This document shows positions 45,146 to 50,744 of a DNA stretch of 64,000 bases, one piece after another. The stretch's first letter is position 1. Each line of letters begins with the position of its first letter. The position numbers were made by a program, and so were the translations under genes. This DNA comes from Pseudothermotoga thermarum DSM 5069. Lineage in GTDB: Bacteria > Thermotogota > Thermotogae > Thermotogales > DSM-5069. The stretch spans positions 1,972,014 to 2,036,013 of the forward strand of contig NC_015707.1 of NCBI RefSeq assembly GCF_000217815.1. Reading direction: 5' to 3'. A model generated the notes under the pieces. The model saw only the letters and a list, made by a program, of their open reading frames with translations. It did not search any database and was not told the origin of the DNA.

Positions 45146-46825
45146 TTAACGAATGGTTATAAGCAACAGCAAAGGAGCAAAGACTTCCGCGACCAGTGAC
45201 ATTACGGTTATCATAGTGTTCAAGGAAGGACCTGCGGTATCTTTGAATGGATCGCCAACGGTATCACCAACGACAGCGGCTTTATGCGCTTCCGAGCCTT
45301 TTCCACCGTAGTGTCCTTCTTCGATGTATTTTTTAGCGTTGTCCCAAGCTCCTCCGGCATTTGCCATGAAAAGTGCAAAAATTATTCCGCTGACTATGCT
45401 TCCTGCCAAAAATCCCGCCAAGGCTTCCTTTCCCAGGATTATCAACGTTAAGACGGGCGCTATTATGGCAAGAACACCGGGTAGAATGAGCTCTTTCAAA
45501 GCCCCAATTGTTGCTATATCCACGCACTTGGCATAATCCGGTTTTGCTTTTCCTTCGATCAAGCCAGGAATTTCTTTGAATTGCCTTCTAATTTCTGCAA
45601 CCATTCTTTCACAGTTTTTTCCAACCGCAAGTATTAAAAGTGCGGAAAGTAGCGGTGGCATCATTGCTCCTATGAACAAACCTGCTATAACCTGTGGTGA
45701 AATCATATCGAGAGATTTTATGTCGACAAGATGCGCATAAGCTGAGAAAAGTGCTAAAACTGTCAAAGCAGCTGATCCTATGGCAAATCCCTTTGTGATT
45801 GCTTTCGAGGTATTTCCGGCAGCGTCGAGCATATCGGTTACGGCAACTACTTGCTCACCCAAGCCAGATTGTTCGGCAATACCTTTTGCGTTGTCGGATA
45901 TTGGACCATAAGCGTCGGCAGAAATTATCATTCCGACTATCGAAAGCATGCCAAGAGCTGCGTTGGCTATACCGTAAAATGGATCAACGCCAAACCACTT
46001 CGCCAAATACCAAGCGGCAACTGTGGCAGCCGCAATGCACAGAATCGGTGGAACGATGCTGGTAAGTCCGTAAGAAAAACCGGTCAAAATGTTGATGGCT
46101 GTTCCAGTTACCGAAGCTTCAGCAACCTTCTTTGTTGGCTTTTTTTCTATCGAAGTGAAGTAATCCGATGTCAAGCCAGTTACGATGCCCGCAAAAAGTC
46201 CAGCAAGCGTTGGAAGGAAAACCCCAGGCCATCTTTCTCCAAGGTTTGAAATTTTTGTTATAAGGAAAAGAAAGACCACAAAGATGACACAAGTTGAAAA
46301 AGTTCCTATGTTCAAAGCTTTTCCTGGACTGGTCTTGATGCTTCTCACCACGAAAATCAAACCAAGAATTGATGCAATTAATCCCATCGCAGCTATGATA
46401 CTTGCTATGTAAGAATCCGTTAAATCTGCACCCATCCCAGCAACATCACCCACGTTGTCTCCAACGTTGTCTGCTATTACAGCTGGGTTTCTTGGATCGT
46501 CCTCTGGTATACCAAGTTCAACCTTTCCAACCAAATCAGCACTTATATCGGCAGTTTTCGTGTATATTCCACCACCTGCTTTGGCAAACAAGGCAAGTGC
46601 GCTTGCCCCAAAGCTGAACCCAAGAACCATGTTTGTCGCATCGTTTTCCGGCCAACCCAGAAGAACTTTGAAGACGAAGTAAAGTACCGTGATACCAAAC
46701 AACGAAATCCCTACAACGAACAATCCCATCACCGCTCCACCGAAGAATGCAACAGGAAACGCAGCTTTAAGACCATTTCTAGCCGCGGAAGCGACACGAA
46801 CGTTTGCTTCAACAGCGGCCCTCAT
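45146..46825 (-). CDS. hppA: Membrane pyrophosphatase HppA, main C-terminal part (split gene)
   Basis: Ion-pumping pyrophosphatase, hydrolysing PPi to move H+ or Na+. This 559-residue piece has the [11 protein letters not shown] segment, the substrate site [33 protein letters not shown], and the final [16 protein letters not shown]. The segment [10 protein letters not shown] carries Lys at the position that is Ala in K+-dependent enzymes, which suggests the K+-independent class. The first 99 codons are separated from it by an in-frame TAA (46832-46834). The ATG at 46825 is 6 bases beyond that stop and has no clear ribosome site, so reinitiation would be needed. Confidence 0.9.
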
Positions 46826-46831
46826 ACCAAC

Positions 46832-46834
46832 TTA
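46832..46834 (-). other. In-frame TAA within hppA
   Basis: This stop codon is the only interruption of an otherwise continuous hppA frame. It sits in the pattern Ala-Ala-stop-Val-Gly-Met where homologues read Ala-Gly-(Tyr, Phe or Ile)-(Ile or Val)-Gly-Met. A Tyr codon TAT or TAC would become TAA by one substitution. Sequencing error, true pseudogenisation, readthrough and reinitiation are all possible. Confidence 0.8.
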
Positions 46835-47131
46835 TGCTGCCAACGTGGTACAGAAAGATCCAAGTACGTACGAAATTGCCATTCCAACACCGATTGAAAA
46901 ACCTTTGGTGTAAGTTGCAACCGCTCCTATGATCACACACATTACGATGACAAAGATAAAAAGAACCTGGTTTTGCCGTCTTAAATAGGCAAGTGCTCCT
47001 TCTTTGATAGCCTGCGAGATTTGTTGCATCTTCTCAGTTCCAGGGTCTTTTTTCACAACGTATCTGAAAAGGCCAAGAGCTATAAGAATAGCACCAACAG
47101 CTGAAATCAAACTTATTACAAACCAAGCCAT
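46832..47131 (-). CDS. hppA: Membrane pyrophosphatase HppA, N-terminal fragment (split gene)
   Basis: The 99 residues give the first two membrane helices and most of the third (AWFVISLISAVGAILIALGL and VLFIFVIVMCVIIGAVATY), with the connecting segment EKMQQISQAIKEGALAYLRR typical of M-PPases. The reading frame stops at TAA 46832, where homologues have an aromatic or aliphatic residue before VGM. The frame is unchanged after the stop, so a single base change explains it. ATG 47131 follows AAGGGGGTGAT, and a good promoter lies 24 bases further up. Confidence 0.88.
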   Translation of the reverse strand: MAWFVISLISAVGAILIALGLFRYVVKKDPGTEKMQQISQAIKEGALAYLRRQNQVLFIFVIVMCVIIGAVATYTKGFSIGVGMAISYVLGSFCTTLAA

Positions 47132-47154: not shown

Positions 47155-47184
47155 ATTATAGAACACATCTGGAAGAAAAATCAA
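47155..47184 (-). promoter_or_regulatory. Putative hppA promoter
   Basis: TTGATT (47179-47184) and TATAAT (47155-47160), 18 bases apart on the minus strand, lie upstream of the hppA ATG. The -35 overlaps the last codons of the preceding dehydrogenase gene. Confidence 0.65.
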
Positions 47185-48485
47185 AGCAGATAAATGTTGT
47201 CGCCTTTGAATCCAAGCATGCCAAGAATGTTTTTCGTATCGAAGATTAATTTGCATTTTTCAACAAGCATTTTGTAATCGACGTTCCTTTTATGAGCGGT
47301 CGTGATGACAGCTATATCAGCCCATTCGCACAGCTGTTCGGTTAATTTTTGAGTTTTTCTTATTTGATCTTTGTATTTGAATTCCTCAACGTAGGGATCA
47401 ACTGGTACAACGTCTGCGTGGTATTTTTCAAGAATTTCAAGGACCTTTAGCGCAGGAGATTCTCTGGTATCGCTAACGTCACCTTTGTAAGCAACTCCTA
47501 CAAGTAGAACTTTGGCACCGTTCAAACACTTTTTCCTTTCGTTCAAAAGTTCCATTACCCTTTGCACTACGTATTCAGGCATCGAGTCGTTTATTTCACC
47601 GGCTAGTTCTATCAACCTTGTGTGATATCCATACTCTCTGGCTTTGTAGGTCAGATAAAACGGATCGATTGGTATGCAGTGTCCACCCACTCCTGGCCCG
47701 GGGTAGAACGGCATAAAACCAAACGGTTTTGTCGAAGCTGCTTGGATAACCTCCCAAATGTTTATGTTCATCTTCCTTGCGATTATTGCCATTTCGTTTA
47801 TCAAAGCTATGTTGACTATTCTGAAGGTGTTTTCAAGGATTTTGGACATTTCAGCTTCCTTCGGGGAAGATACGACAAAAACAGGTGCATCAAGAATGGA
47901 TTCATAAAGCAGTTTTGCAAGTTCCGTTGATTTTTTACCCACTCCTCCAACCACTTTTGGCGTGTTCTTAGTTTTGTAAATCAAATTTCCAGGATCCACT
48001 CTTTCTGGACTGAAGGCAAGGTAAAAATCCTCTTCACACTTTAAACCTGTTTTTTCAAGAATTGGCTTAACAACTTCTTCCGTTGTGCCGGGATATGTTG
48101 TCGACTCTAAAACTATAAGCATCTCTTTGTGCAAACGCTTTGCTATTTCTTCCGTTGTGTTGATGACGTAACTCAAATCAGGTTGTTTGAATTTATCAAG
48201 CGGGGTTGGAACGCATATGGTAACCACATCGCATTCTTTCAAAAGGTCATAGTTTGTCGTTGCAGTCAGCATACCTTTTTCAACAACAGTTTTCAAATCC
48301 TCAGGCACAACATCTCCTATGTAGTTTTCTCCTCTGTTCACCATGTCAACCCTTTTTTGCTGAATATCGAAACCTATCACCTTGAATCCTGCTTTGGCTT
48401 TTTCAACGGCTAAAGGAAGACCAACGTAGCCAAGCCCAATGACTCCTATTACAGCTGTTTTGTTGACTATCTTTTCTTTCAACAC
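47181..48485 (-). CDS. Nucleotide-sugar dehydrogenase (UDP-sugar 6-dehydrogenase family)
   Basis: NAD-dependent four-electron oxidation of a UDP-sugar C6 to the uronic acid. The 434-residue protein has the Rossmann GVIGLGYVGLPLAVE, CVPTPLDKFKQPDL, and the catalytic cysteine in GPGVGGHCIPIDPFYL. Sequence features (STKPFGFMPFYPGPGVGGH) resemble the UDP-GlcNAc/ManNAc type more than UDP-glucose dehydrogenase. With the DegT aminotransferase upstream it could make an amino-uronic acid precursor, as in WbpA/WbpE pathways. GTG 48485 follows AAGGGGGT, just after the aminotransferase stop. Confidence 0.88.
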   Translation of the reverse strand: MLKEKIVNKTAVIGVIGLGYVGLPLAVEKAKAGFKVIGFDIQQKRVDMVNRGENYIGDVVPEDLKTVVEKGMLTATTNYDLLKECDVVTICVPTPLDKFKQPDLSYVINTTEEIAKRLHKEMLIVLESTTYPGTTEEVVKPILEKTGLKCEEDFYLAFSPERVDPGNLIYKTKNTPKVVGGVGKKSTELAKLLYESILDAPVFVVSSPKEAEMSKILENTFRIVNIALINEMAIIARKMNINIWEVIQAASTKPFGFMPFYPGPGVGGHCIPIDPFYLTYKAREYGYHTRLIELAGEINDSMPEYVVQRVMELLNERKKCLNGAKVLLVGVAYKGDVSDTRESPALKVLEILEKYHADVVPVDPYVEEFKYKDQIRKTQKLTEQLCEWADIAVITTAHKRNVDYKMLVEKCKLIFDTKNILGMLGFKGDNIYLL

Positions 48486-48488
48486 CTT

Positions 48489-49640
48489 TCATACCCCCTT
48501 GAAAAATTCGAGGATTTTGCTTGAAACGTATTCGATTTCCTCATCGAGCAGTTCTGGAAACATTGGAAGTGCAAGAACTTCTTGACAAGCTTTTTCTGCC
48601 TTGGGAAAGGAATAAGTTAAGCCGTCCTTTTCAAAACACTTTTGTTTGTGCATTGGTAAAGGATAGTAAATCGCAGTTTCAACGCCATTTTGTTTGAGAA
48701 ACTCCTTCAAACTGTCCCTAAGTCCGTTTTTAACCCTCACAACATACTGGTGAAAAACACATCCAAAGCCATCTTCAACTTTTGGAAGGACGATGAAACC
48801 ATTTTTTTGAAGATCCTTTAGATGGTCGTTGTATTTTCTTGCTATTTCAATCCTTTTTCGGTGATAATCGTCAAGGTATTTCATCTTGACTCTCAAAATT
48901 GCCGCTTGAATTTCGTCAAGCCTACTGTTGATTCCTTCTATCTCATGGAAATACTTAACTTTTGCACCGTGAACCCTGAACACTTTGCAAAACTCGGCAA
49001 GTTTTTCATCGTTTGTCAGAATCATTCCTCCATCCCCGTACGCTCCCAAATTCTTCGTGGGGAAGAAGGACAAAATTGCCAGATCTCCAACGCTACCGCT
49101 TTTTTTCCTTTGTCCTGATGAATAAGTCCACTCCGATCCTATCGATTGCGCGCAGTCTTCGATTATTTTCAAACCGTATTTGTTTTTTATGTTTTCCAAC
49201 CTTTCCAGATCAATTGTTCTTCCAAAGAGATGAACCGGTATGAAAGCCTTTATCCTTTCTTTATTCGGATGTTCTTGCAAAATCTTTTCCACTTCGTTCA
49301 AATCCACGTTGAAGGTTTCCTCGTCTATGTCCGCAAAAATGAAACTTGCCCTGTTTCTGGTTATGCAGCTTACTGTGGCAAAAAACGTGAACGGAGTAGT
49401 TATAACCAAATCGCCTTCACCGATGTTCAAAGCTTTGACCGCTATGTACAAAGCATCTGAACCGTTTGCAACTCCGATGGCATACCTTACGCCTATGTAA
49501 CTTGCAATTTCGTTTTCAAGTCTTTCGACGTTTGGACCAAGGATAACCCTACCGGATTTCAAAACCTCGTCGATACAGTTTAAAATTTCAGATCTTATAG
49601 ATTGGTATTGTCTTGTAAGATCAAAAAGAGGAACTTTCAT
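48489..49640 (-). CDS. DegT/DnrJ/EryC1/StrS-family aminotransferase
   Basis: PLP-dependent sugar aminotransferase. The 383-residue protein has LGPNVERLENEIASYIG, IEDCAQSIGSEW, and the PLP lysine in ILSFFPTKNLGAYGDGGM. The substrate would be a keto-sugar nucleotide such as UDP-3-keto-GlcNAcA; that is inference from the neighbour. ATG 49640 follows AAAGGGGAG; longer frame starts add six residues. It begins right at the end of the upstream regulator gene, within the same operon. Confidence 0.9.
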   Translation of the reverse strand: MKVPLFDLTRQYQSIRSEILNCIDEVLKSGRVILGPNVERLENEIASYIGVRYAIGVANGSDALYIAVKALNIGEGDLVITTPFTFFATVSCITRNRASFIFADIDEETFNVDLNEVEKILQEHPNKERIKAFIPVHLFGRTIDLERLENIKNKYGLKIIEDCAQSIGSEWTYSSGQRKKSGSVGDLAILSFFPTKNLGAYGDGGMILTNDEKLAEFCKVFRVHGAKVKYFHEIEGINSRLDEIQAAILRVKMKYLDDYHRKRIEIARKYNDHLKDLQKNGFIVLPKVEDGFGCVFHQYVVRVKNGLRDSLKEFLKQNGVETAIYYPLPMHKQKCFEKDGLTYSFPKAEKACQEVLALPMFPELLDEEIEYVSSKILEFFKGV

Positions 49641-49641
49641 G

Positions 49642-50289
49642 CTAATCTCCCCTTTCAAGATGCATTTCTCCAGAGGTTTTTAACCTAAAAATGTATACAT
49701 TTTTCAAGTTAACCAACTTTGCCTTTTGGAAGATTTCATCGGCATGCTTGAACGAAGCTATTAAAACCGCATCGTATTCTTGAGAGTGAAATTGTTCGGG
49801 TGGTAGTACACGAATTCCCGCTATTTCTTTTCCTTGCTTTTTTGGATCGTCGTCCAAAAAGCAAACCAAGTTGAATCCTTCTTCGATCAAAAGCCATGCC
49901 AAGTTTTGACCGATGACGCCTGCACCGTAAAGAACCAATCTATGACTGTTGGTACTGCGAAGATCGTCGAAGACTTTTCGAAAGTTTTCTTTCGATTGTT
50001 TGTATAGCCTGGCAACTTCGCTGAAATACAGAACGGTTAGATACTGAAGGCGTGTTTTCCCAGCTTCTGTCAATTGATACTTCATCTTTCTCTTTGAGCC
50101 AGATTTTTGTATCAATCCATTTTCTTGAAGGGTTATCAAGTAGTTGTGGACCATCGAAGGAACCACGCCCACCATTTTCGCAAGCTTTTTTTGCGAAATA
50201 TGTTCTTGATGAAGAATTGCCCTGAGAATCAAGTACTCTCTGTAAATTGCCGTTGGTTCGAAGAAACGTTCTTGTTCCAAATTGATCAC
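49642..50289 (-). CDS. Winged-helix regulator fused to Rossmann nucleotide-binding domain
   Basis: The 215-residue protein has an N-terminal winged helix (about 15-75: ISQKKLAKMVGVVPSMVHNY) followed, after a helical linker, by a Rossmann domain (about 115-205: LVLYGAGVIGQNLAWLLIEE ... FLDDDP) like the N-terminal half of PglD-type sugar acyltransferases or CoA-binding proteins. It could sense a nucleotide sugar or NAD. The start is GTG 50289 or TTG 50280; the promoter sits so close that GTG 50289 would be nearly leaderless. It is first in an operon with the aminotransferase and dehydrogenase, so it probably regulates them and itself. Confidence 0.82.
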   Translation of the reverse strand: MINLEQERFFEPTAIYREYLILRAILHQEHISQKKLAKMVGVVPSMVHNYLITLQENGLIQKSGSKRKMKYQLTEAGKTRLQYLTVLYFSEVARLYKQSKENFRKVFDDLRSTNSHRLVLYGAGVIGQNLAWLLIEEGFNLVCFLDDDPKKQGKEIAGIRVLPPEQFHSQEYDAVLIASFKHADEIFQKAKLVNLKNVYIFRLKTSGEMHLERGD

Positions 50290-50300
50290 TCACTGAGTGA
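50286..50300. promoter_or_regulatory. Perfect palindrome, likely operator
   Basis: TCACTCA and TGAGTGA are separated by one base, directly downstream of the -10 box of the regulator gene and over its possible start codon and transcription start. This is the usual place for an autorepressor site. Confidence 0.6.
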
Positions 50301-50329
50301 ATTATATACCACTCCTTGTCTTTGATCAA
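50301..50329 (-). promoter_or_regulatory. Promoter of the regulator / nucleotide-sugar operon
   Basis: TTGATC (50324-50329) and a perfect TATAAT (50301-50306) are exactly 17 bases apart on the minus strand. The AAGGAG just upstream of the -10 is not in the transcript. Confidence 0.75.
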
Positions 50330-50344
50330 ATTTTTCAATAAAAT
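50316..50344 (+). promoter_or_regulatory. Divergent promoter of the cyclophilin-like gene
   Basis: TTGTCT (50316-50321) and TAAAAT (50339-50344), 17 bases apart on the plus strand. It overlaps the opposite promoter by 14 bases, so the two should compete for polymerase. Confidence 0.55.
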
Positions 50345-50366
50345 TAGTACTTAGGAGGTGGTTCTG

Positions 50367-50744
50367 GTGAAGATCAAGTTCATCTTTGGAAACTATGAAT
50401 GCGTTGCAGAGCTTGACAAGGAAAAGGCTCCTCTTACGTGCGAAGCGGTGCTGAAAGAACTTCCAATCAAAAGTGTTGTGAACCGGTGGGGAGATGAGAT
50501 TTACTTTGAAACCCCAGTGAAAATAAATGTTGAAGAAAACAGCAAAGACGTGGTTGAAGAGGGCGACGTTGCCTTCTGGATTCCTGGAAGGGCAATCTGT
50601 TTGTTCTTCGGAAAGACTCCCATCAGCGACGACAAAATTAGACCTGCCAGTGCCGTAAACGTCTTTGGAAAGATAAAATCAGACCTTAAACCTTTGAAGC
50701 AAGTTGCACCTGGAACAAAGGTTACAGTCGTGCTTGAGGAATGA
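50367..50744 (+). CDS. Cyclophilin-like fold protein (TM1367 family)
   Basis: The 125-residue protein fits the cyclophilin-like family named after Thermotoga TM1367. The pattern includes ECVAELDKEKAPLTCEAVLK, GDEIYFETPV and VEEGDVAFWIPGRAICLFFG. The function is unknown; prolyl isomerase activity is not established for this family. GTG 50367 is 8 bases after AGGAGG (50353-50358); the frame's first GTG (50358) overlaps that site. It is transcribed divergently from the nucleotide-sugar regulator through overlapping promoters. Confidence 0.8.
   Translation: MKIKFIFGNYECVAELDKEKAPLTCEAVLKELPIKSVVNRWGDEIYFETPVKINVEENSKDVVEEGDVAFWIPGRAICLFFGKTPISDDKIRPASAVNVFGKIKSDLKPLKQVAPGTKVTVVLEE

Follow-up and report, generated by a model that had tools for sequence, protein, structure and literature searches.

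A conserved palindrome as the probable operator of a winged-helix–Rossmann regulator of UDP-sugar genes in the Thermotogota

Introduction

Rex proteins join an N-terminal winged helix to a C-terminal Rossmann domain with a GxGxxG motif, act on redox metabolism and have the operator consensus TTGTGAn6TCACAA. Structures of a Rex of Thermotoga maritima have been solved (PMC8836258). Rossmann domains of the PglD_N type, including that of structure 3nkl, occur within sugar enzymes and acetyltransferases. The MarR-family EPS-associated regulators of model TIGR04176, which covers 105 positions and contains no Rossmann domain, have a MarR-like winged helix and, to judge from the name of the model, a polysaccharide gene neighbourhood. 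Finally, in the UDP-ManNAc3NAcA pathway of the Pseudomonas aeruginosa wbp cluster and of Thermus, UDP-GlcNAc is converted to UDP-2,3-diacetamido-2,3-dideoxyglucuronate by WbpA, WbpB (WlbA), WbpE and WbpD, and WbpI then epimerises the product (PMC10622841); the passages of that account considered here mention no regulator of the type we describe.

We analysed a 64-kb stretch (the window, positions 1,972,014 to 2,036,013) of the 2,039,943-bp single-contig genome of Pseudothermotoga thermarum, in which a palindrome lies at the promoter of a regulator gene. Very probably, this palindrome is an operator through which a repressor dedicated to the biosynthesis of UDP-2,3-diacetamido-glucuronate, encoded immediately downstream, regulates its own operon. 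The regulator resembles Rex in its architecture, GxGxxG motif included, and in a profile match to the Rex Rossmann part, but its putative operator, TCAnTCA-n-TGAnTGA, is not the Rex consensus, and the genes behind it form a local pathway operon rather than serving redox metabolism. With 3nkl and PglD_N it shares the C-terminal domain, here fused behind a DNA-binding domain and lacking an acetyltransferase or dehydratase part; with TIGR04176, the winged helix and the polysaccharide setting. The enzyme set of the wbp and Thermus pathway recurs behind or under the operator; the activities of the Thermotogota enzymes are predicted from homology.

Results

The palindrome overlaps the promoter of the regulator gene

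The elements at the regulator promoter are the following:
50286..50300, no strand: operator TCACTCA-C-TGAGTGA (TCACTCA-G-TGAGTGA on the regulator strand), exact match, conserved at regulator orthologues and pathway genes
50301..50306, minus strand: TATAAT, the -10 hexamer of the regulator promoter, immediately adjoining the operator, the junction being the same in most relatives
50324..50329, minus strand: -35 hexamer TTGATC of the regulator promoter, with a 17-bp spacer to TATAAT
49642..50280, minus strand: regulator gene, encoding a MarR/HTH_24-type winged helix, a long linker helix and a PglD_N/Rex-like Rossmann domain

The original prediction had placed a TTGATC-17-TATAAT promoter before the regulator gene and a perfect palindrome directly against its -10, and both were present in these positions. 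The promoter (TTGATC at 50329-50324, 17 bp, TATAAT at 50306-50301) matches the consensus at 10/12 positions; many relatives have an extended -10 (TGn upstream of TATAAT) in place of the -35 TTGATC. The palindrome, TCACTCACTGAGTGA, is a perfect 7-1-7 dyad touching the TATAAT. With seven 7-1-7 palindromes in the window, its symmetry by itself is unremarkable; it is the sole one of them that abuts a TATAAT. The genome search that had been proposed found the exact sequence once, against 0.009 occurrences expected, and this single copy is the one at the regulator promoter, the P. thermarum genome holding no further exact regulon site. All near matches with one or two mismatches in the whole genome fall within coding ORFs. 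As in one-component repressors, a dyad-symmetric site thus overlaps the promoter of the regulator's own gene. For comparisons across the phylum we used the motif form TCANTCANTGANTGA.

The longest open reading frame of the regulator begins at a GTG (50289) that falls within the palindrome. In four sister-genus orthologues, however, a second in-frame start codon lies three codons further on (ATG in three, TTG in one), and the corresponding P. thermarum codon is TTG 50280-50278, giving a protein that begins MEQERFFEP... and preceded by GTGATC, which we presume could pair with the 3' end of the 16S rRNA. Because of the second start of the orthologues and the GTGATC upstream, the regulator likely starts at TTG 50280, with GTG 50289 as the alternative, and the operator would span about -6 to +9 relative to the inferred transcription start.

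The regulator combines a MarR-like winged helix with a PglD_N/Rex-like Rossmann domain

The N-terminal domain scored above the Pfam threshold for MarR/HTH_24; for the MarR family (PF01047) it reached 29.2 bits against a gathering threshold of 24.6, a match that covers the DNA-binding domain only. PglD_N matched the C-terminal domain in 23 of 24 regulator orthologues. In the AlphaFold model (mean pLDDT 89.6, pTM 0.70) a helix of 38 residues links the winged helix to the Rossmann domain. The top fold matches were Rex chains, with a TM score of about 0.36 over the whole chain, so either the domains are arranged differently or the domain packing of the model is uncertain. The C-terminal domain also matched the fold of the UDP-D-quinovosamine 4-dehydrogenase domain 3nkl, which was its top PDB sequence match as well (E=4e-10). 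Assignment to an established family failed in three cases: the protein scored at most 35.9 bits against Rex models with cut-offs of 126-233, 25 bits against MarR_EPS (TIGR04176; cut-off 88), and below the model cut-off for NeuD.

Two conserved stretches, GAGxVGxxL and DDD...K.G...G.PV, would suit the binding of either NAD(H) or a UDP-sugar. Because domains of this type belong to enzymes of sugar-nucleotide metabolism, and because the regulon comprises a single pathway, we favour a UDP-sugar of the pathway over NAD(H) as the effector.

Homologues of the wbp enzymes lie behind the regulator

Three genes follow the regulator in the window:
48489..49640, minus strand: DegT/DnrJ aminotransferase, WbpE-like (likely start ATG 49640), from Pfam and PDB matches including WbpE (E=2e-70)
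47181..48485, minus strand: nucleotide-sugar 6-dehydrogenase, putatively in the WbpA role, from TIGR03026 above its cut-off and PDB matches
45146..47131, minus strand: hppA, encoding a membrane pyrophosphatase, read in the same direction as the operon and kept behind it in the sister genus

The DegT aminotransferase comes after the regulator across the phylum. The usual order is the WbpE-like DegT gene, often a WbpD-like hexapeptide acetyltransferase, the WbpA-like dehydrogenase and the WlbA homologue, and in some relatives (e.g. loci L213 and L223) the complete set of 6-dehydrogenase, 3-dehydrogenase, aminotransferase and acetyltransferase lies behind the regulator. Four enzymes of the pathway, WbpA, WbpB (WlbA), WbpE and WbpD, have homologues encoded under or behind the operator. 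In P. thermarum the WlbA homologue is found at 523 kb, away from the operon and without an operator, beside a gene whose product, read by eye, starts like the non-hydrolysing UDP-GlcNAc 2-epimerases. Thus, in this species only the arm made of DegT and the dehydrogenase appears to be directly controlled.

Note that hppA is divided by an in-frame TAA (46832-46834) into two ORFs of the same frame (LAA*VGMRAAV). In four genomes of the sister genus it is uninterrupted, encodes 682 aa and occupies the same place behind the operon. The TAA could be a real nonsense codon, a recoding site or a sequencing error.

The site accompanies the regulator and the pathway across the phylum

The regulator was found in 25 of the 45 genomes of the order. 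A profile search of the phylum detected it in 67 of the 103 Thermotogota genomes, which represent 26 of 38 genera. In the named GTDB collection, a scan with the single protein gave no matches and an alignment-based scan gave 20 loci.

In its own family, the site abuts the -10 before the regulator in all six genomes that have the regulator; the regulators of the five relatives are 42-45% identical to that of P. thermarum. The site reads TCACTCAGTGAGTGA in four of the six, TCATTCAGTGAGTGA in one and TCACTCAGTGAATAA in one; five are exact to the motif and one has a single mismatch. The search for the palindrome upstream of orthologous regulators thus found it in 5/5 other family members and in most other lineages. 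Kosmotogaceae, Mesoaciditoga, Marinitoga, Petrotoga and other lineages carry it at the regulator promoter with 0-1 mismatch, and one genus (G091-G096) and genome G049 with 2-3 mismatches.

The site moves where the pathway moves. In the second family (Fervidobacterium, Thermosipho) the regulator promoters have no site; instead, TCANTCANTGANTGA lies at the promoter of the dehydrogenase orthologue (62-67% identical to the gene two behind the regulator in the window) in 18 of 19 regulator-bearing genomes, with 0-1 mismatch (one mismatch in two genomes), and the remaining genome has no detectable dehydrogenase gene. Fervidobacterium has a second site before a WlbA-like Gfo/Idh oxidoreductase, whose nearest solved relatives are 3q2k and 3q2i, labelled simply oxidoreductase and dehydrogenase, which we take to be WlbA structures. 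In Marinitoga-like genomes the pathway is split into two operons, regulator-DegT and dehydrogenase-WlbA-acetyltransferase, with a site against the TATAAT of each. The name under which the protein had been predicted, a nucleotide-sugar regulator, gains support from the operon content and from the operator at the dehydrogenase and WlbA promoters.

With the dehydrogenase sites of the second family counted and the partial genes of G051 and G075 left out, 52 of 65 assessable genomes have the site at the regulator or a pathway promoter with 0-1 mismatch, and 59 of 65 when weaker sites in the same position are included (0-3 mismatches to TCANTCANTGANTGA). The exceptions are G052-G055, G062 and G020. 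Neither G052-G055, which form one genus, nor G062 has a site at its own regulator promoter, and G052-G055 have none at the dehydrogenase promoter either; these cases weigh against the operator reading. Conservation at orthologous regulator promoters gives the predicted autoregulatory operator strong support.

Several loci deserve separate mention. In G052-G055 (L215-L218) the regulator that lacks an operator is diverged (30-35% identity) and lies outside any sugar operon; its target may have changed. In G001 (L034) genes for a WbpD-like acetyltransferase and a phosphomannomutase-like protein come after the regulator; the dehydrogenase lies elsewhere (L272) with its own operator copy, which has one mismatch. 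In a Marinitoga-like genome (G085:C9:202671-203275, L238) the regulator gene appears to be in two fragments, one with an internal TAG, and the operator is intact. Finally, at six Thermosipho-like loci (L011, L013, L014, L016, L018 and L020) the region separating the regulator from a divergent nadE-like gene holds a long palindrome, for example AAATTATATCACGATTTTTGTGATATAATTT; it resembles a pair of extended -10 elements in mirror image, with TGATATAAT on either strand, and is possibly a bidirectional promoter or the operator of another factor.

The site is lost where the regulator is lost

None of the eight genomes tested that lack the regulator and have the dehydrogenase carries a site at the dehydrogenase promoter; the best matches there have 4-5 mismatches, the level given by random sequence. 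Within the order, the exact motif was present in 22 of the 25 genomes with the regulator and in 1 of the 20 without it, counts whose Fisher test is inflated by shared ancestry. The sole regulator-less genome with the motif is 60% complete and has two sites, at the expected dehydrogenase and WlbA places. The reversed motif matched in 1 of 45 genomes. Matches in L088, L091, L097, L115, L255, L258, L260 and L261 were treated as chance, since each falls in a coding sequence or at its margin and no promoter could be recognised there. Given the relatedness among the genomes, the independent evidence consists of the movements of the site together with the pathway.

These data bear on whether the site could be a palindrome that lies beside a promoter by chance. 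The number of such palindromes in the window would allow it, but the same position is kept in dozens of genomes and shuffled upstream regions almost never reached matches as good; we consider chance hardly credible and refuted by conservation. The sequence and position of the site, its conservation and its co-occurrence with the regulator and the pathway are read directly from these genomes.

The shape of the site fits a DNA-binding protein

We compared 47 collected sites, a few of which are the same site taken from the other strand, so that the frequencies are approximate. Within TCANTCANTGANTGA the positions TC....A.TG..T.A are invariant, and the junction AT-TCA and the tail AATnA are also preferred. 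C and A predominate in columns 3 and 11, with the TCA/TGA half-sites kept, which makes the perfect palindrome of the window a special case. The commonest form, TATAATTCACTCAGTGAATGAATGA, holds a second dyad, ATTCACT-C-AGTGAAT, shifted 2 bp to the left. Sites of this form in L089-L259 have, besides the second overlapping dyad, a direct-repeat tail (TGAATGAATGA), and the two together suggest that binding is not confined to a single register. In most genomes no base separates the site from the -10; in some genera it follows the -10 at a distance of 4-14 bp.

Could the palindrome act instead as a hairpin in the 5' leader, controlling mRNA stability or translation? It overlaps the start region of the regulator gene, and in full it folds as a 6-bp hairpin (-9.1 kcal/mol for a 42-nt leader). 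However, a transcript starting about 7 nt after the TATAAT carries only half of the palindrome, and the hairpin is lost in such a leader. Moreover, in the typical relative the C and A of columns 3 and 11 stand opposite each other and are unable to pair, the site does not fold, and the varying distance from the -10 means that the site is fully transcribed in some genomes and cut in two in others. We therefore rejected the RNA element, which is very improbable; the shape of the site fits a DNA-binding protein that blocks the polymerase around the start.

A model for feedback control of the pathway

We propose that a dimer of the regulator binds TCANTCA-N-TGANTGA over the transcription start. Binding would shut off the regulator's promoter and hence also the aminotransferase and the UDP-sugar dehydrogenase behind it, and in other genera the same regulator would shut the separate promoters of the WbpA-like dehydrogenase, the WlbA/WbpB-like 3-dehydrogenase and the WbpD-like acetyltransferase. 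The pathway under control would be the synthesis of UDP-2,3-diacetamido-2,3-dideoxyglucuronate, and the Rossmann domain would let a nucleotide sugar of the pathway (or NAD(H)) set the occupancy of the operator, giving feedback control. We infer that the winged-helix–Rossmann protein is the binder of the site; autorepression, as opposed to activation, is suggested by position only, and effector sensing by the Rossmann domain is likewise a presumed step.

It is rather unlikely that the site belongs to a different, co-inherited DNA-binding protein or that the bound protein activates. One genus retains the regulator without any site found, and a position near +1, typical of repressors, does not prove the sign. 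Against this, throughout the phylum the site accompanies the regulator gene at the promoter of that gene, and it goes with the pathway where the two are separated.

In the literature searched, which left out RegPrecise and most subscription papers, we found neither the motif in a bacterial regulatory setting nor a matching regulator, and the main text of a Thermotoga maritima carbohydrate regulon study mentions neither UDP nor MarR. Thermotoga-like genomes lack the regulator; the genus Thermotoga keeps the dehydrogenase and has neither regulator nor site. An autoregulated operator is of a classical kind; the regulator family and its regulon appear to be undescribed. More tentatively, and with somewhat less than even confidence, we suggest a phylum-wide family of one-component repressors in which a Rossmann domain of the PglD/UDP-sugar type senses a nucleotide sugar of the pathway directly and feeds back on its synthesis, a Rex-like architecture put to use for a sugar nucleotide instead of redox. 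If the Rossmann domain does bind a UDP-sugar, it would represent a new and simple way of building a nucleotide-sugar sensor.

The proposed assignment gives a regulator, an operator and a regulon, at base-level resolution, to a family of transcription factors that appears undescribed, in an ancient phylum of thermophiles. The control circuit, for a rare cell-surface sugar, would be kept across most of the Thermotogota, and most of them are predicted to synthesise a 2,3-diacetamido uronic acid and to regulate its production, presumably for polymers of the cell surface.

The divergent promoter is a local feature

Two further features lie on the other side of the regulator promoter:
50316..50344, plus strand: divergent promoter-like site TTGTCT-17-TAAAAT, in an arrangement that is not conserved
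50358..50744, plus strand: cyclophilin-like gene (PF04126), outside the conserved module

The opposite promoter had been predicted to overlap that of the regulator by 14 bases, as is the case: TTGTCT (50316-50321), 17 bp and TAAAAT (50339-50344) match the consensus at 9/12 positions, and the two promoters share 14 bp (50316-50329). The further proposal, a switch that connects the operon with the cyclophilin-like gene, is not supported. A two-way switch, in which the palindrome-bound regulator would govern its own operon together with the divergent cyclophilin-like cluster through the overlapping promoters, is unlikely. RNA polymerase at one of the overlapping promoters could hinder the other in P. 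thermarum, but the divergent promoter does not include the operator, which lies upstream of its -35, and the arrangement is not conserved. Of the family members compared, P. thermarum alone has the cyclophilin-like gene beside the regulator; in the four sister-genus genomes that share the operon, a transporter gene read in the same direction lies upstream of the regulator. In one of them, G007 (L033), a CycL-DUF4897-SIR2-RbsK cluster lies about 7 kb from the regulator, with unrelated upstream sequence and no such site upstream of it. In P. thermarum itself, the overlap of the two promoters may cause local interference.
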